Positions 24,895-32,652 of a stretch of DNA of 64,000 nt are shown one piece after another. Location of the stretch: contig NZ_OY776411.1 in the NCBI RefSeq assembly GCF_963675585.1, positions 253,001-317,000 of the forward strand, in the 5' to 3' direction. A program made the position numbers and the translations under genes. Each line of letters opens with the position of its first letter. Within the stretch, counting starts at the first letter, position 1. The notes below the pieces were generated by a model, which was not told where the DNA came from, did no database searches, and saw nothing but the letters and a program-made list of their open reading frames with translations. The stretch comes from an uncultured Draconibacterium sp. GTDB lineage: Bacteria > Bacteroidota > Bacteroidia > Bacteroidales > Prolixibacteraceae.

Positions 24895-24916
24895 AAATAC
24901 CTAATTTTAGGTATTT
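24895..24916. promoter_or_regulatory. 22-bp palindromic operator upstream of the first PAS-LuxR gene
   Basis: The arms AAATACCTAA (24895-24904) and TTAGGTATTT (24907-24916) are perfect complements with a 2-bp spacer. It ends 40 bp before the ATG at 24957. The same outline, AAATAC-N10-GTATTT, recurs upstream of the fibre gene at 31341-31362, which suggests a shared regulator, most simply one of the two LuxR proteins. Confidence 0.6.
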
Positions 24917-24956: not shown

Positions 24957-25730
24957 ATGGATGAAAGTAGTATAGAAAAAATTAAAAAAGCCTGGGCACC
25001 CAACAAAATAGCACGTCCCGTAAAAACTGAATTGTATCTGAATATTATTGAGCAGATTGCCAATTTATTTTCTGCAGGAAGTTTCTATTACTACATCATG
25101 AATTTTGAAACGCTTAAAATGGAACATGTTGACGATCGGATACAAGCAGTGTTGGGATTGAATCCGAAAGACTGGAGTTTGGATAAAGTTTTTGATTTGG
25201 TTCATCCGGAAGATTTGAAACAGATGCACAGAAAAGAGGAAAAAGCCGTAGATTTTATTCTGAACAAAATTCCTACTGAAGATATTCTGAAATACAAAGT
25301 TGTTTATGTTCTGCGTATGCGACACACTGACGGAACATACAAAACCATTCTGCAGCAATCAAAAGCCATAAGCCTTTCGGACGATGGGAAAGTACAACAG
25401 GTGTTGGGCATTCATACCGACGTTACCTATTTAAATATGCCGATAGACCATAAAATTTCGTTTATTGGCGACAACCGCCCCTCGTTTTATGCGGTTTCAA
25501 CCGACGACGATTTTGAGCCCGAACAAATGAATTTTCTGGATGTTTTCACTCCACGCGAAAAAGAAATATTAACGCACATTGCAAGAGGAAAAGCATTCGG
25601 AGAAATTGCCAGCATCCTGAATATTTCGCCCCACACAATCAATACGCACAAGAAAAATATTCTACGGAAAACCGATTGCAAAAATACGACTGAATTAATA
25701 GCACGCTGTGTAAGAGACGGCGTGATTTAG
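24957..25730 (+). CDS. PAS-domain LuxR-type transcriptional regulator, copy 1
   Basis: The 257-residue protein has an N-terminal PAS-like sensor (about residues 30-165, with the V-H-P-E-D-L and H-T-D-V-T-Y-L segments typical of the PAS_3 fold). The LuxR helix-turn-helix is at about 195-255: F-T-P-R-E-K-E-I-L, I-A-S-I-L-N-I-S, and H-T-I-N-T-H-K-K-N-I. There is no receiver domain or membrane segment, so it probably binds a ligand or senses redox in the cytoplasm. A close paralogue is at 31846-32652 on the other side of the fibre genes. A 22-bp palindrome precedes it, and a short remnant of a nadD 3' end follows its stop codon. Confidence 0.88.
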   Translation: MDESSIEKIKKAWAPNKIARPVKTELYLNIIEQIANLFSAGSFYYYIMNFETLKMEHVDDRIQAVLGLNPKDWSLDKVFDLVHPEDLKQMHRKEEKAVDFILNKIPTEDILKYKVVYVLRMRHTDGTYKTILQQSKAISLSDDGKVQQVLGIHTDVTYLNMPIDHKISFIGDNRPSFYAVSTDDDFEPEQMNFLDVFTPREKEILTHIARGKAFGEIASILNISPHTINTHKKNILRKTDCKNTTELIARCVRDGVI

Positions 25731-25738
25731 CCTAGCGG

Positions 25739-25755
25739 TAAAAATTCATCTCCTC
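25739..25755 (-). pseudogene. Remnant of a nadD 3' end
   Basis: TAAAAATTCATCTCCTC is identical to 32665-32681, which is the end of the intact nadD. On the minus strand the local frame reads E-E-M-N-F-Y-R-stop, the nadD C-terminus, lying just beyond the stop of the first LuxR gene as nadD lies beyond the second. The match is short, so duplication is inferred, supported by the paralogous genes on the other side. Confidence 0.5.
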
Positions 25756-25897
25756 TGATAAGAATAAAGCTCTCACTCCTTCAACAATTTACGTCATTAA
25801 TTGCATCAATACTATATTGCTTGCTCCACACGTAAAATACCATTGAGTAAATGAAAAGAAACTCAAGCATAGTGAATACTTTTAAAAACAAGTTAAA

Positions 25898-27412
25898 TTA
25901 ATTTCCAGCGTTTAAAATCACCTTTCGATTCACCCAGCGATTGTCAAACTTTAACCGAATTATGTATACTCCAGAGCTAAGTTTATTTCCATCCGAATTT
26001 TCTCCATTCCACTTAAAATTGTAGAATCCGGTTGATAGCATAGTACTATTTAAAACCCTTTGTACTGGCTGATTCAAAAGATTTACAACATCGATTTCTA
26101 CCATACAAATTCGATCTAGATTGATGTAAATTTCGCAAAAATCACTAAATGGATTTGGATAACAATTTGCTTCAACCCTTTTTTTATTATCATCTTGAAC
26201 GTCCAAAAAAGACAAATTTTCCAGACTCAAAAAAACACTTTCATTTTTGGAAAATTTAATTGGCCCTTCAACAAGACTTGTTATCAATAGCATCTCCTTT
26301 TCTTTTATCGGATCCCAAATCCTTAAAGAATAGGCATCTCCTTGTTCAAATCCATTTATCATCTTTTCATCCTTTGCTGAAGCAATCACCTGAACGCTTT
26401 TATTCTCCAAATGGTACTCCTGTATACTAACAGCACCAACACAAACACCTCCATCAAAAACTCCAATTTCATCACCTGGCTTTAATTCAGAGATTAAGCT
26501 ACCAGTTAAGTTAAAGTTCATTTGATCGGTACCGTTCCCTCTATAAACCGGTATAAAAAATTTCGTTTTTACGTCCATAAATGTAAGGTGCCCTGATTTT
26601 GAATAAGCTTCAGAAATCCATAATGTATCTGGTGCATCCATTTTAATTTTATACCCTTCTCCTGGCTTAAAATCTCCAATAAAATTAGTTACACCTCCAT
26701 AAATGCCCCAGTCTTCAATCGAATTTCCGCTTTCATCCTGCGCTTTTATAAAAGTTCCAGCATCAATTAAATTACTTAATACTTCTTCTGCATCAAAATT
26801 TGAGGATTGAGGATACCCAATAATATTCCATCCAGTAGTTAATGGAATCGCAAAAGGGTATTCAACAAAGTTGCCACAAACCTCAAACGAATCATTTTGT
26901 GTTACTTTAATCTTGTAACCTTCTGTGTTTCTTACATCTCCAATTCCGTTCCACCAGCCTCCATATATGCCAAGATCTTCAAAAGAGACACCACTTTCAT
27001 CCTGGATTTTTATAAGCGAACCATTTTCTAAAAAAGGGTAAAAGATTTCAAACAGATCAGTTGTTGAAGGCTGATTATTGATCGAAAATATATTCCATCC
27101 TTCTTCAAGATAAATTGACGAACAAACCATCCCCGTATCCGTAATGAAATCAATCTGGTTCAGAATAATACCCTGCGTTGCCAGAATAGCCGTATTTCGG
27201 TTTATATATGTACCCAATTGTCCTGCTGAAACATAACTCGTATAATTGCCTCCCGACACAATTCCCGCACCATTTGATACTGCACTTTGATTCTGTTCAA
27301 TTTGGGCATTCAAATCATTTGGCAATGCTATTATTCCCATTGTTATCAGAAGAGACATCAATGTGCGGACATAAAATGCCATTCCAAAATTAGGTATCTT
27401 AAATACGTACAT
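25898..27412 (-). CDS. Secreted protein with T9SS type A C-terminal sorting domain
   Basis: The 504-residue protein has a signal peptide, clearest if translation starts at the second Met (27382), ending near L-N-A-Q. Two related segments of about 75 residues each begin G-W-N-I and end G-Y-K-I-K, each with a G-I-Y-G-G core. The C-terminus (about 420-504) has Y-P-N-P-F-S, a V-D-V-V-N-L-L segment and S-S-G-V-Y-I-I-R-L, the type A sorting domain recognised by the type IX secretion system. The protein is expected at the cell surface or outside. It starts 6 bp after the fibre gene, so the two are co-transcribed. The function of the repeated part is unknown. Confidence 0.82.
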   Translation of the reverse strand: MYVFKIPNFGMAFYVRTLMSLLITMGIIALPNDLNAQIEQNQSAVSNGAGIVSGGNYTSYVSAGQLGTYINRNTAILATQGIILNQIDFITDTGMVCSSIYLEEGWNIFSINNQPSTTDLFEIFYPFLENGSLIKIQDESGVSFEDLGIYGGWWNGIGDVRNTEGYKIKVTQNDSFEVCGNFVEYPFAIPLTTGWNIIGYPQSSNFDAEEVLSNLIDAGTFIKAQDESGNSIEDWGIYGGVTNFIGDFKPGEGYKIKMDAPDTLWISEAYSKSGHLTFMDVKTKFFIPVYRGNGTDQMNFNLTGSLISELKPGDEIGVFDGGVCVGAVSIQEYHLENKSVQVIASAKDEKMINGFEQGDAYSLRIWDPIKEKEMLLITSLVEGPIKFSKNESVFLSLENLSFLDVQDDNKKRVEANCYPNPFSDFCEIYINLDRICMVEIDVVNLLNQPVQRVLNSTMLSTGFYNFKWNGENSDGNKLSSGVYIIRLKFDNRWVNRKVILNAGN

Positions 27413-27418
27413 AATAGA

Positions 27419-30400
27419 TTATTTAAGACCGTTAGAAGTTATCAATTCCGGATTAGACGCATTTTTATCGCTAATCATCTGAACCTTTTCATATAGGTTT
27501 TTTACCTGCTCTTTCAAATTTTCGATTTCAGTATTTCCGGGTAATGTTTGAGTAAGTCTGACTTTTAACTCATTGTTTTCGGTTTCCAGTATTTTTATTT
27601 TTGAATTCATTTCCTTCATAGCCTCCACCAATACCGCAACCATTTGCGAATAATTGAGGGTTTTAAAACCATCTTCTTTTGTTTTTACGAATTCAGGGTA
27701 CACCAGTTCTACTTCCTGTGCTATCATTCCTATCTGAGCATCTGTCTTTGTCCCATCAGTTTTCCAATAATACGAGACGCCTCGGAGTTTTTCAAGATTT
27801 GATAAAGCATTTGAAAGTGGATTAATATCCTTTTTTAACCGTACATCAGAACTTTGACTCAGAGTGCCGGATATGGTGATATTCCCGCTGTAACCGTCTA
27901 AAGTTATTTTAGATTCATCATTCTTGCACAAATCCATTGATCCCCAGGAATCGGTTTCATCGGCGCCTGCACTTATACTAGCCGCAATATAAAACCAACC
28001 ACTACCATCCGGTTTATCCGTAAACAAATTCAAAACTGCTAAATCATGATTTTCCCACGACTGGCTTCCCATTTGAATGTTGGGAGAGTTATCTCCCCAT
28101 AGGTACATTTCCGAACTTGAACCATTTTCATTTTCATTAAGCGAAATACTTGCTTTTTCTATACCCACATTTGTTGGGCTAAGTGTTCCGTTGGTTCCTG
28201 AGTTTGTATTAAAACTAATAGAATTGGGGTTCAGGTTCATAGTTGATTCATTTTCAGACCACATATTTATAAAGCCTTCCTGAGCTGTATTCACATCGGG
28301 AGCAACAGAAATTTCCATTCCCCGGAAATCATTCTGACCATTTAAATTTATCATTGGCAGGTCTGTACTTTCCCAGCTGCGCGTGCTAAACTCTATATTG
28401 TTCGAGTTTGATCCCCTTAAATTTAAATAGCCTGCCCATCCATTTCCAGAATCATTGTTAATGGAAATACTTGCCAGATCGTTCCAGGTATTATCTATAT
28501 CCCTGAGTATTACACTTCGTGGTTCAATAGCAATCATTTTTCCTTCATGGGAACTCATTTCCATGAAACCCCATTCATTTTCACCATCTGATTCGTTTCG
28601 TAAAGAAACAATTTGCTCACCAGTGCTTTTGTCAATGGTCAGTCCTCCGCTTCCTAACCATGTCCGTCGATTGGTCTTATCCATTAAATGAATGTATCCG
28701 GCTTCTGGATAATTTGAATCGAGGGAAAGCTCAATAGCTGTAAAGTCTTCGGTTCCCTGCATCCATACAAATGGGATATTTGCATCTTCCCAATTACGTG
28801 CACCAATTTCAATGTTGTTTGAACCTGGCCCCCTAAGATTCATAGTTCCCCATTCGTTTTCCTGATCGTCATAATTAACTGACACTGAAATTCGTGTTTC
28901 ATTATTTGCTCCGTTCATATTAAAAAAAGGTCTATCAGGACTATCCCAGTGACCACCGGTTTCCAAATTAGTAGTACTTGGGCCACTTGTATTTAAATAA
29001 CCAAAGTTTCCATTTTCATTCGATTCGGTTCGCATCCCGACGCCTTCAACACCCAATCCGGATTCAGGGCTTAAATAAAGGTTTTTTCCACTTTCCGACA
29101 TCAGATTCAAATAACCAAACTGCTGCTCTGCTTCGTTGTGCCCCATTGAAAGTTCTATTCCATAGAAACTGTTTTCTCCATACATATGAATTACGGGTAG
29201 ATCGGGACTACCTTCCCACGAACGACTACCCAGTGATAGATTATCACTGGTGGCTCCATGTAAATCCAGTGTTCCCCATTCGTTTTCCTGATCGTCGTAA
29301 TCAACCGATAAGCCAATCCGCTTTTCATCGCTAGCTCCGTTCAGATTCAGATATGGCCTGTCTCGTGAATCCCAGTGAGCACCTGCTTCAATATTCATTG
29401 TAGTAGGTCCTAAAAGATTAAAAAAACCAGCCCAACCGGCCTCTGAATCGTTGTTTATACTCATACTCGCCAAATCACGCCAGGTATTATCAAAATCGGT
29501 TAAAGCTACTAACCGGGATTCAATATTAGCCATTTTCTTTTCGTACGTTGTAAGTTCTATTTTCCCCCATTCATTCCCCTGTCCATCATCTTCCAATTTT
29601 ATAGATGCCAGGCGCTCACCATCAGGGCTGTGCATATTGATACTTCGGGCTCCCAACCATGTTGAATTACCACTTCGTTGCGAAAGATTGATGTAACCGG
29701 TTTCTTGTTCGTCATTATCCAATGAAATATCAATTGCATGAAAATTACCATTGCCGTCATCAGTTCCAAACATATGAAAATACGGCAAATCTCCGTTTCC
29801 TTCCCAATATTTTCCGCCCATAGAAAGGTTTAATGTATTCTCTCCTGATATCTGAATATGTCCAACTTTGGTACTATCGTTAGGCTCTTCAAACAAACTA
29901 ACTTTTTCAATACCAATTCTTTCCGGGCTCAAGTTAAGGTTCTTACCATTTTCAGACATCAAATTGATGTAACCAAACTGATTTTCATCTCCATCCACAG
30001 AAACTGAAATTTCCATAGCATGAAAGTTGTCTTTTCCATGTAAATTCATCAGTGGAAGGTTGGCATCTTCCCAATCGCGTGTACCCAAATAAAAATTAGA
30101 TGATTGCGGCCCGTTTATATTGAAATATCCTGCATTTCCTAATTCATTTCGGTTCTCAACATTTATGGAAGCTCCTTCTATTCCCACACTGTCGATGGTA
30201 TTAAAATTTATTCCTTTTGAATGCATGCTGGTTAAGTGTCCATCTAAAGAATACAGATTAATATAGGCAGACTCACTGTCGTTTTCGTCGACTGACATTT
30301 GTATTGCATCCTGATTCTGCGAACCAATAAGTTTAAACCACGGCAAATTCGGATCAATCCAATATTTAGCACAAAGCTCAATGTTTCGTGTATCTGGTCC

Positions 30401-31279
30401 ATTTAAATAAAACATAGCAGAAGGTCCGTTACCCAACCAATCATGAAAAAAGTATTTTGAAATTTCCATTCCATTCTTTTCAAGAGTATAAGCATCAGCT
30501 GTTACCCGGTTTAATTCTCCGGTATTGGAACGGAAACTAATTTCACCATACTCAACTGTATCCGATTTATTAATTTCCATTAATAATCCCTGGTAAATTT
30601 CGCCACTGCTAAAACCTAACACCGGACGTTTCCCTCCTTCATCTTCTTCCCAAAACTTAAAAGTATTATAAATCCACCCACCACCATCGCCTGTGAAACT
30701 GTTATATGAAAGTCCATCTGAAATAGCTCCTCCATTTGCTACATAAAAGTGCGATTTTACATCACCATTTGTATTATACAATGCCAAATCTCCTGAATTT
30801 CCCTCAAGCCCTGATGAAGAAAGACTTACATTCAAACTTCCGTTGTTTCCATATAATTTCAATTCCCCATTCTTGTTAACTGAATCATTTAAAGCATGCA
30901 TGCTTCCCACTACGTTTCCTTCTGAATTCCTAACAGAAACAGCGCTCCAGTCATAAGGAGATGACAGTGGTTTATATAAAGTTACTGACGATAAAGGCGT
31001 TCCGTCTACACTGATTGCCATTTCTTGTTCCTCAACGCCAAAAAACAAACTATCAGGGAGAGGATTGATGCTTCCCAAGACAATGAAATACAATCCCTCA
31101 GTAACCAAAACATCACTATGTGTTTCGCCCCACCCCAGGGAAGTTATTTCAAATTCAAAAGTACGTACCCCTTCAACAGGTGTCCCTAATTCAATTAATT
31201 TTCCCTGAAATGGAAGTTTTTGCCCCATAGAAATACAAGTCAAAAGAAGGGCAATTAACATTAAAAAATATTTTTTCAT
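27419..31279 (-). CDS. Giant fibre-like repeat protein with peptidase S74 intramolecular chaperone domain
   Basis: The 1286-residue protein starts with a signal peptide ending at S-M-G-Q. Residues about 290-1120 are a long series of imperfect repeats in which N-[IL]-x-[FILM]-x-x-x-x-W-[ED] is followed by L-P or R-P and then a short strand ending in G, with N-E-W-G and E-x-G-Y-[IL]-[HN]-L elements between. This suggests an elongated beta structure. At about 1141 comes S-S-D-V-R-L-K-K-D-I, the S74 self-cleavage motif (Ser1144, Lys1149), followed by Q-I-G-M-I-A-Q-E-V and a C-terminal coiled coil. S74 domains trimerise and trim phage tail spikes and some bacterial surface fibres. No phage genes are nearby, so a cell-surface fibre or adhesin is likely. 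Confidence 0.85.
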   Translation of the reverse strand: MKKYFLMLIALLLTCISMGQKLPFQGKLIELGTPVEGVRTFEFEITSLGWGETHSDVLVTEGLYFIVLGSINPLPDSLFFGVEEQEMAISVDGTPLSSVTLYKPLSSPYDWSAVSVRNSEGNVVGSMHALNDSVNKNGELKLYGNNGSLNVSLSSSGLEGNSGDLALYNTNGDVKSHFYVANGGAISDGLSYNSFTGDGGGWIYNTFKFWEEDEGGKRPVLGFSSGEIYQGLLMEINKSDTVEYGEISFRSNTGELNRVTADAYTLEKNGMEISKYFFHDWLGNGPSAMFYLNGPDTRNIELCAKYWIDPNLPWFKLIGSQNQDAIQMSVDENDSESAYINLYSLDGHLTSMHSKGINFNTIDSVGIEGASINVENRNELGNAGYFNINGPQSSNFYLGTRDWEDANLPLMNLHGKDNFHAMEISVSVDGDENQFGYINLMSENGKNLNLSPERIGIEKVSLFEEPNDSTKVGHIQISGENTLNLSMGGKYWEGNGDLPYFHMFGTDDGNGNFHAIDISLDNDEQETGYINLSQRSGNSTWLGARSINMHSPDGERLASIKLEDDGQGNEWGKIELTTYEKKMANIESRLVALTDFDNTWRDLASMSINNDSEAGWAGFFNLLGPTTMNIEAGAHWDSRDRPYLNLNGASDEKRIGLSVDYDDQENEWGTLDLHGATSDNLSLGSRSWEGSPDLPVIHMYGENSFYGIELSMGHNEAEQQFGYLNLMSESGKNLYLSPESGLGVEGVGMRTESNENGNFGYLNTSGPSTTNLETGGHWDSPDRPFFNMNGANNETRISVSVNYDDQENEWGTMNLRGPGSNNIEIGARNWEDANIPFVWMQGTEDFTAIELSLDSNYPEAGYIHLMDKTNRRTWLGSGGLTIDKSTGEQIVSLRNESDGENEWGFMEMSSHEGKMIAIEPRSVILRDIDNTWNDLASISINNDSGNGWAGYLNLRGSNSNNIEFSTRSWESTDLPMINLNGQNDFRGMEISVAPDVNTAQEGFINMWSENESTMNLNPNSISFNTNSGTNGTLSPTNVGIEKASISLNENENGSSSEMYLWGDNSPNIQMGSQSWENHDLAVLNLFTDKPDGSGWFYIAASISAGADETDSWGSMDLCKNDESKITLDGYSGNITISGTLSQSSDVRLKKDINPLSNALSNLEKLRGVSYYWKTDGTKTDAQIGMIAQEVELVYPEFVKTKEDGFKTLNYSQMVAVLVEAMKEMNSKIKILETENNELKVRLTQTLPGNTEIENLKEQVKNLYEKVQMISDKNASNPELITSNGLK

Positions 31280-31845
31280 GGAATAAGTGTTAAGTTAGAT
31301 TCTGATTTTCCATAAAGTTACTAGCTTATATTGTACAAGTAAATACTACATTTTGAGTATTTGATTTTATAAAAGAACACCGGGATAGCAACCTTCAACA
31401 CTAAAGAAAATTCTTAAAATTGACTATCCCCGTGGAAGAACCAAGGGGCATTGCGCCAACTCTATTTCAGCCAGAAAGCTGAATCCCGAGTTTTCGTTTT
31501 TCACCCCTCTGGCAGTCTTTCGACTGATATCTTCCCTGACTTTTAGGGGAGAATATAAGGGAATTCCGTTCCAAGCCAGAAGGAATTATTTCATTAAATA
31601 CCTTTTAAAGTATTCAGAAGTTTAAGAAATGGAAATGCTCAAAAACACACGAAATCTATCAGTTAACAGCTTTTAAAAAACTAAAAATCATTAACTTTAA
31701 CCCTACTGATAATCAACAACAAATCAGCACATCACAAAAAATGATGCAAACATATGTTTTGACATCTATTACAAGAAAGCAAAGGATGTATCACTTTCCC
31801 CATGCTTTGACAAAAAAACCCAATTAACAGACTTAAAATCAGCTC
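31280..31845. other. 566-bp divergent region between the fibre gene and the second PAS-LuxR gene
   Basis: It contains the operator palindrome at 31341-31362, the shorter variant at 31596-31615, and a patch at 31430-31580 with small hairpins: TTCAGC/GCTGAA at 31466-31483, CAGTC/GACTG at 31513-31526, and an enclosing CCCCT/AGGGG pair. The patch looks like a degenerate intergenic repeat. No gene is seen. Confidence 0.5.
31341..31362. promoter_or_regulatory. 22-bp palindromic operator upstream of the fibre operon
   Basis: AAATACT (31341-31347) and AGTATTT (31356-31362) flank an 8-bp centre. The total length and the outer AAATAC/GTATTT match the palindrome at 24895-24916. It lies 61 bp upstream of the fibre ATG. 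A related but shorter site, AAATAC-N8-GTATTC, is at 31596-31615. Confidence 0.55.
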
Positions 31846-32652
31846 ATGAAAAAAAAACAGAATAGCCCATTTAAAACCATCGATTTGCATGTTAACGAGG
31901 TAATAAACACTTGGCAAACTACCAATAACATAAAAAAATCTGTCAACAAAGAAGTTTATGTAAATATGATTGAACAAGTTGCCGATTTATTTTCGGCAGG
32001 TTCATTTTATTACTTTATCCTGAATTTTGAAACTTTTACAATCGATTTTATAAGTGAAGGATTAAGCACAATGTTGGGTTATGATATGGAGCCATTCAAA
32101 ATACAAGAATTACTAACATTGATGCACCCTGAAGATCTTGCAAAAATGCCCAATAAAGAAAACCTGATAATTGATTTTCTTATGAATCGAGTATCCGAGG
32201 AAAATATTTCACAATACAAAGCGGTTTATCTGATGCGACTTAAACATGCCAATGGTCACTATAAAACAGTGTTGCACCAGTCGAGAGCCATTCTGGTATC
32301 AAAAGAGAAAGGGATACAAAAAAGCTTGTGTATTCACACCGATATTAGTTACCTCAACATTATCTCTGATCATCGGGTGACACTAATCAGTAGCACTCAA
32401 CCTTCATATTACTTCAATAAGAACGAGAGCGCCCCACAACTTATTGATACAGAAGATAAATTACTATTTACAAATAGGGAAATTGAAATACTCCTAAAAA
32501 TGGCACAAGGGAAGAATTTTCAAGTCATTGCAGACGAATTGTATATTTCTCCAAACACTGTTAATACACATAAAAGAAACATTCTTACAAAGGCAAATTG
32601 CAAGAACACAGCCGAATTAATGGCGAAATGCATTCGGGAAGGTGTTATTTAA
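31846..32652 (+). CDS. PAS-domain LuxR-type transcriptional regulator, copy 2
   Basis: The 268-residue paralogue of the regulator at 24957-25730 has the same plan: a PAS-like domain (about 35-175, with Q-V-A-D-L-F-S-A-G-S-F-Y-Y, M-H-P-E-D-L and H-T-D-I-S-Y-L) and the LuxR helix-turn-helix (about 205-266, with F-T-N-R-E-I-E-I-L, I-A-D-E-L-Y-I-S and N-T-V-N-T-H-K-R-N-I). Its 3' end overlaps the convergent nadD gene by 4 bp. It is divergent from the fibre operon, so it is the natural candidate for controlling it. Confidence 0.88.
   Translation: MKKKQNSPFKTIDLHVNEVINTWQTTNNIKKSVNKEVYVNMIEQVADLFSAGSFYYFILNFETFTIDFISEGLSTMLGYDMEPFKIQELLTLMHPEDLAKMPNKENLIIDFLMNRVSEENISQYKAVYLMRLKHANGHYKTVLHQSRAILVSKEKGIQKSLCIHTDISYLNIISDHRVTLISSTQPSYYFNKNESAPQLIDTEDKLLFTNREIEILLKMAQGKNFQVIADELYISPNTVNTHKRNILTKANCKNTAELMAKCIREGVI

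Follow-up and report, generated by a model that had tools for sequence, protein, structure and literature searches.

Within a 64,000-nucleotide stretch of the genome of an uncultured Draconibacterium sp. (contig NZ_OY776411.1, positions 253,001 to 317,000; hereafter the window), two genes for PAS-LuxR regulators, here called regA and regB, enclose a giant gene for a fibre with an S74 domain and an adjacent gene whose product ends in a sorting domain of the type IX secretion system (T9SS). The host genome comprises 6.03 Mb in 4 contigs. Genes were called throughout by a simple rule of longest open reading frame (ORF), and signal peptides were read from the sequence by eye, with no predictor. 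The features of the locus are as follows.

24895..24916, no strand: operator-like dyad AAATACCTAATTTTAGGTATTT, 40 bp 5′ of the regA ATG
24957-25730, + strand: regA, PAS-LuxR regulator of 257 aa (ORF call; PAS_3 and GerE)
25898-27412, − strand: T9SS partner ('adaptor') of 504 aa, with a signal-peptide-like start, a module, a long middle and a C-terminal sorting domain
25910..26167, − strand: C-terminal T9SS sorting domain (partner residues 416-501)
27143..27304, − strand: module of ~50 residues in the partner, residues 37-90, common to mostly 156-217-aa partners phylum-wide
27419-31279, − strand: S74 fibre gene with a product of 1286 aa, separated from the partner gene by 6 bp
27683..27850, − strand: S74 domain of the fibre, with the SDxxxK motif as SDVRLK at residue 1144
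30905..31234, − strand: N-terminal domain of the fibre (FNT, our name), residues 16-125, predicted to be beta-rich
31315..31320, − strand: TAACTT, exactly 20 nt past the dyad, as in 3/3 giant-gene promoters
31341..31362, no strand: operator-like dyad AAATACTACATTTTGAGTATTT, 61 bp 5′ of the fibre ATG and 483 bp 5′ of the regB ATG
31846-32652, + strand: regB, second PAS-LuxR regulator, 268 aa, divergent from the fibre gene and with a 4-bp overlap on the 3′ terminus of nadD

The original prediction had described two paralogous regulators around a leftward fibre and T9SS operon. ORF calls and domain scans recovered all four genes where it had put them, with the identities it had given. The fibre and T9SS genes, both on the − strand, are also the only ones between the regulators, as the other intervening ORFs of at least 80 aa overlap them on the opposite strand.

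The fibre and its T9SS partner

The fibre carries a C-terminal Peptidase_S74 domain (PF13884; 60.5 bits, cut-off 22), the sole S74 match in the whole host genome. The SDxxxK motif in this domain (SDVRLK, residue 1144) is the feature that defines the S74 subgroup of the mosaic adhesive trimer (MAT) fibres discussed below. No T9SS sorting domain was detected in the fibre by Pfam and NCBIfam scans or by a sorting-domain model built in this analysis. Thirty-one PHROGs families match the protein; most of the 25 shown are named tail fibre, and the shown matches are confined to its C-terminal part, from residue 899 on. By sequence there are two PDB matches, the best being 6f45, the distal subunit of a long tail fibre. 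Nine G..[ST].N...W stretches in the fibre body (residues 294-1075) are probably shaft repeats. FNT is predicted as a beta-rich fold with a mean predicted local distance difference test score (pLDDT) of 82, and comparison of this fold with PDB and with viral models gave no hit below E 0.001. A scan for further relatives of the window fibre found at least one locus, which is on the contig already known from G016, a genome of the same genus.

As predicted, the protein encoded next to the S74 fibre ends in a T9SS sorting domain: TIGR04183 matches at 24.8 bits, above the cut-off of 23, whereas PF18962 scores 24.7 bits, below the Pfam cut-off of 27. Three further places in the host genome match the partner. 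Within the genus, the module near its N-terminus is 62-66% identical while the rest of the protein is exchanged; thus, the partner of genome G005 matches the window partner only at residues 12-88 (E 1e-10). The module has a sequence pattern like SxGE/Q...L(T)xGF, and in the proteins scanned no Pfam model was found for it or for FNT. Many partners at S74 loci are minimal, comprising a signal peptide, the ~50-residue module and the sorting domain, and an alignment of 30 such minimal partners has a near-invariant lysine near the C-terminal end.

The pairing of the two genes extends far beyond the genus. We examined S74 loci from 40 of the 41 genera among the matches listed, hand-picked with one gene per genus and a frame of at least 400 aa; the sample leaves out the window's own genus and G268, at a contig edge. 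A pair was counted when a sorting-domain gene lay adjacent on the same strand and within 300 bp, and S74 runs were classed as secreted by our own signal-peptide rule. The 40 loci contain 43 S74 gene runs, 33 of them with a signal-peptide-like start. An adjacent sorting-domain gene was present at 21 of these 33 secreted runs and at none of the 10 others. The background at the same loci, among genes that are neither S74 nor beside S74, was 33/454 (Fisher p = 2.3e-14 against 21/33).

A search from the partner side gave the same picture. The module alone was found in 26/37 genomes of the genus (E 0.01) and in 48/296 genomes of the phylum (E 0.001), at 109 distinct places in all, of which we examined 104 (the 59 best-scoring and 45 more). 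The 59 best places yielded 51 genes with both module and sorting domain, 45 of them beside a fibre recognized by the FNT or S74 model, and the 45 further places yielded 40, with 31 beside a fibre. Combined, 76 of 91 such genes adjoin a fibre, compared with 0/13 module-less sorting-domain genes at loci selected for the regulator. Of 47 adjacent pairs from the best-scoring loci, 39 are separated by 1-50 bp; the partner precedes the fibre in 37 and follows it, as in the window, in 10. The gap is 6 bp in the host genome, in G005, in G016 and at the distant locus L210. Taken together, a fibre with a partner that carries the T9SS signal is a recurrent, phylum-wide unit.

The host genome contains a second, minimal pair (L341, C4:602433), in which a 162-aa module gene lies 6 bp before a fibre-type gene; no S74 domain was found in the latter. 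Several pairings that do not involve FNT share another fibre start and another partner start. At L221, L225, L228 and L233, S74 fibres starting like NITNTLG..NG.F.IKD stand with sorting-domain proteins that have a GTG..(C)A...GTGTLC-like N-terminus. Moreover, five S74 proteins (L216, L223, L224, L229 and L234) carry their own sorting domain behind S74 and so represent the pair in fused form. They are odd in one respect: any cleavage by S74 would remove the sorting domain together with the chaperone.

The regulators and an operator-like dyad

Both regulators have a GerE helix-turn-helix (HTH) domain well above the cut-off of 23.5 (59.4 and 57.4 bits), preceded by PAS_3, which in RegB scores 23.9 bits and so falls below the Pfam cut-off of 25.6. 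The domain scan of RegA and RegB listed PAS_3 and no receiver domain, which sets them apart from two-component response regulators. The shared domain order and the many shared residues noted in the original prediction were confirmed (PAS_3 then GerE; 44% identity over 255 positions). In the whole genome only these two proteins match the regulator family over full length, and six further matches cover the HTH end alone. The description of the two as paralogues needs qualifying: they are relatives by sequence, but our identity matrix, which includes six RegA proteins, gives RegB only 43-46% identity to these, and it falls outside a clade of 19 regA rows, on a long branch whose exact placement is unsure. 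regB is therefore an old, separate lineage and not a fresh duplicate of regA, and on these grounds we ruled out that the regulator had recently been duplicated in tandem on either side of an inserted gene pair.

regA is present in 20/37 genomes of the genus, several of the remaining genomes being incomplete. We examined its neighbourhood in all 20 and found nadD (TIGR00482) next to it in 18; the exceptions are the host genome, in which the cassette separates the two, and G026, in which a different gene lies between them. On this basis regA is a core gene. Three genomes carry extra regulators, one of which faces a giant secreted gene in each case. In the host genome, the fibre gene faces regB. 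G005 has a fibre and partner with two further regulators, regC and regD, on the opposite side of regA from the cassette of the host genome. G020 has regC and regD with a giant gene (L094:3-4709) that encodes LamG domains and an HYR match under the cut-off and is broken off at the contig end. Extra regulators are thus found in 3/3 genomes with a giant gene and 0/17 without (Fisher p = 8.8e-4, which is not a clean probability because the genomes are related). regC is 69% and regD 51% identical between G005 and G020. The unrelated LamG giant of G020 stands behind the same dyad (described below) and the same two regulator lineages as the S74 fibre of G005; since regC and regD are common to both genomes yet face different giants, the giant looks exchangeable.

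An alignment of the regions upstream of regA revealed a conserved dyad, AAATAC-N10-GTATTT. The window holds exactly two exact copies, compared with none in 100 shuffles. An exact dyad lies 37-51 bp 5′ of 19/20 regA genes, and the twentieth, that of G026, has a copy with a single mismatch. We surveyed 24 stretches of the genus (the window and L093-L115; 489,069 bases) and found 23 exact dyads: 19 at regA, three at junctions between a giant gene and a regulator, and one on the fibre contig of G016. Of the 426 ORFs of at least 100 aa in these stretches, 24 are preceded by a dyad at no more than 100 bp, and each of them is either a regulator gene or one of the three giants. The G016 copy (L095:530-12490) lies between a LuxR-type gene of uncertain family, cut by the contig end, and seven co-directional genes, the last two of which are a fibre and a partner. 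In the host genome as a whole there are five exact dyads, and only the regA and fibre copies fall outside ORFs; of the three within ORFs, one is 48 bp before the next ORF and another 140 bp before a different one. At L328 and L333, in two genomes, the form AAATACCTTTwGGTAGGTATTT recurs inside a 267-aa ORF, probably through coding conservation.

The geometry of the dyad in the three giant promoters is fixed. It lies 61, 69 and 68 bp from the ATG and 20 nt from a TAACTT in 3/3 cases, although one of the giants is the unrelated LamG protein. Promoters of Bacteroidota have a −7 box with the consensus TAnnTTTG, and activators of the LuxR type usually bind near −41; if TAACTT is the −7 box, the centre of the dyad would fall near −41. 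At regA, a TAnnTTG is found 4-6 nt past the dyad in 12/18 genomes, not including the host genome, and this placement would fit self-repression.

Outside the genus, we examined 20 loci of about 20 kb, which cover 23 of the 34 places found for the regulator family and include 24 regulator genes. As a phylum-wide marker of S74 loci the family was ruled out, as none of the 20 loci has an S74 gene. At 7/20 loci the regulator has sorting-domain genes no more than three genes away; this we leave out of the evidence, as genes of that kind may be frequent there. An exact dyad occurs within 250 bp upstream of three of the 24 regulator genes and a dyad with a single mismatch at two more; one of the dyad-bearing regulators (L150) belongs to another class. 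Regulator family and dyad thus seem to associate at places far from the window locus, but not everywhere. L160 has three family regulators together, two of them divergent; each has the dyad, in one case as an exact copy and in two with a single mismatch, and no S74 gene was found in this cluster. At L161 (7899-10214), in another family, a gene for a 489-aa sorting-domain protein is divergent from a regulator gene, with an exact dyad between the two or over the long start of the first ORF, a layout like that of the host locus with other cargo. L154, a locus from a different family within the class, likewise has one of these regulators next to nadD-, gmk- and yicC-like genes, so named by likeness.

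A proposed fibre cassette and its alternatives

We consider it on balance probable that the locus is a surface fibre cassette under PAS-LuxR control, whose partner exports the fibre and holds it in trans. Fibre and partner would cross the inner membrane by their signal peptides (Sec export), and the fibre would trimerise and cleave itself via S74, by analogy with the S74 fibres of phages and of Bdellovibrio. The fibre would be held at its N-terminal domain by the module near the N-terminus of the partner, whose gene lies 6 bp downstream, and the partner's C-terminal sorting domain would carry the pair through the T9SS. The pair would then be anchored on the cell surface, with the fibre standing out from its N-terminal base; we propose surface fixation because type A cargo may be linked to lipopolysaccharide, according to the part of PMC10994853 available to us. 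RegA and/or RegB would bind AAATAC-N10-GTATTT at the fibre promoter and drive the pair, setting its expression through the dyad in answer to a signal, and RegA would also act on its own promoter. A role of the fibre in adhesion is assumed by analogy with its S74 relatives. For a broader version we see about even chances: a general 'sorting domain in trans' route of Bacteroidota, in which adaptors of ~165 residues, made up of signal peptide, docking module and sorting domain, dock on the N-terminal bases of trimeric S74-type fibres that have no sorting domain themselves and export and anchor the complex, with at least two lock-and-key pairs of base and module and, in this genus, the giant as swappable cargo behind a PAS-LuxR operator.

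Several observations weigh against this proposal. By our rule, 12 of the 33 secreted S74 runs have no adjacent partner, although one of these has a sorting domain of its own and another has a partner one fibre gene further off. Likewise, 15 of the 91 module genes have no adjacent fibre by the models; 3 of them lie at a contig end, and several adjoin a fibre-body-like frame unmatched by the models (L254, L268, L290, L295, L347, L348, L349 and L369). The 40 S74 loci supplied six of the 14 rows in the module profile; minus profile-row loci or their congeners, the count beside a fibre is 68/83. For a minimal partner, structure prediction is confident over the sorting domain and of low confidence over the module (pLDDT about 50); on weak evidence, the module might be a part that folds on its ligand. 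Such gaps in the pairing, and the fact that we infer the contact between fibre and partner, leave room for the two being exported and acting separately, as neighbouring surface proteins of one operon, with the fibre taking another route or staying periplasmic. We regard this as rather unlikely in view of the association of module genes, but not of module-less sorting-domain genes, with fibres, the existence of fused proteins, and the minimal build of most partners (50/51 at the best-scoring module loci are 156-202 aa). Separate action is also opposed by the matching N-terminal types: in 25 pairings at the 40 loci, a module partner accompanies 10/13 FNT fibres and 10/12 of the others have neither (p = 0.005), with the reservation that the models were partly trained on the same loci and that the module threshold was loose (E 1).

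On the side of regulation, 17/20 regA genomes have no giant gene beside the regulator, S74 genes are absent from the loci examined outside the genus, and 19 of the 24 regulator genes there have no dyad at up to one mismatch. Summed over 37 genomes, the dyad gives 102 forward matches against 60 for a backwards control, so that stray dyads number about 1-2 per genome and lone copies mean little; the dyad at the fibre is also 483 bp from regB, so autoregulation by RegB is not indicated. The first two of these findings, together with the age of the regB lineage, leave unsupported the idea that the regulator pair as such defines the module, and the linkage of homologous regulators to S74 genes, which the original prediction had offered as its own test, turned out negative. 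The same two findings speak for a cassette that merely landed beside a core regulator gene, with no functional tie between the two. Such a coincidence would, however, have to account for the fixed spacing between dyad and giant in 3/3 genomes and for extra regulators being confined to the genomes with a giant, and we consider it improbable. We have retained the idea of regulation in spite of the failed linkage because the operator-like dyad is shared by the regA and fibre promoters. What survives of the predicted regulated surface-display module is thus a link between regulator family and fibre through the dyad, and a fibre and T9SS pair that recurs. What accompanies such fibres throughout the phylum is the T9SS partner and not the regulator, a point that the original prediction had overlooked. 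Finally, the 31 PHROGs families matching the fibre could point to a remnant of a prophage or contractile injection system with a captured tail fibre. This we hold to be very improbable, as the shown matches begin only at residue 899, a PHROGs scan of fibre and partner matched 0 families to the partner, and the flanking genes are contiguous in relatives.

Comparison with known systems

In the literature covered, which included few subscription papers and no preprints, no publication was found that links the T9SS to S74, endosialidase or tail-fibre-domain proteins, or to PAS plus LuxR in Bacteroidetes. In the accessible parts of three papers, co-mentions of T9SS, tail fibres and S74 were incidental: a reference list (PMC9478572), unrelated passages (PMC13288928), and S74 as a strain label (PMC11385106).

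RegA and RegB resemble LuxR/NarL-type regulators with PAS domains in their GerE HTH, and a solved relative, 3clo, matches residues 75-247; they differ in that no receiver domain was listed, and here an operator is proposed for the subfamily. The fibre shares with phage S74 tail fibres and endosialidases the S74 domain with SDxxxK and the match to 6f45, but it is encoded by a bacterial gene with a secretion start, and no phage genes were seen alongside. The partner is like a T9SS type A substrate in its C-terminal sorting domain with a near-invariant lysine, a residue described near the end of type A sorting domains as nearly invariant (PMC10994853, in the part available); unlike such substrates, the proposed cargo is a second protein that has no sorting domain.

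The closest likeness is to the MAT fibres of Bdellovibrio bacteriovorus, as described in the available portion of PMC10769870. There, 13/21 fibres end in S74 with SDxxxK, trimerisation and S74 self-cleavage were shown for Bd3182, and some surface element, as yet unidentified, is the presumed binding partner of the N-terminal domain. MATs are surface adhesins that have, like the fibre studied here, a signal peptide, a beta-rich N-terminal domain, a long fibre and S74; FNT, beta-rich by prediction, resembles their N-terminal domain by description only. What differs here is the adjacent T9SS partner and the regulator operator, and neither the T9SS nor a partner gene is named for MATs in that portion of the paper. 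The build of the fibre is thus already known, whereas a T9SS partner for such fibres was not found in the literature searched. If the proposal is true, it explains how phage-like trimeric fibres are exported and retained on the surface of Bacteroidota cells, a question similar to that posed by the N-terminal domain of the Bdellovibrio fibres (PMC10769870, same portion), and it widens the rule by which each T9SS cargo bears a sorting domain of its own. It also supplies an operator that can be tested, for a family of regulators of which we found no target named anywhere. A general route in trans, if proved, would deserve more than the label of a variant of a known fibre.

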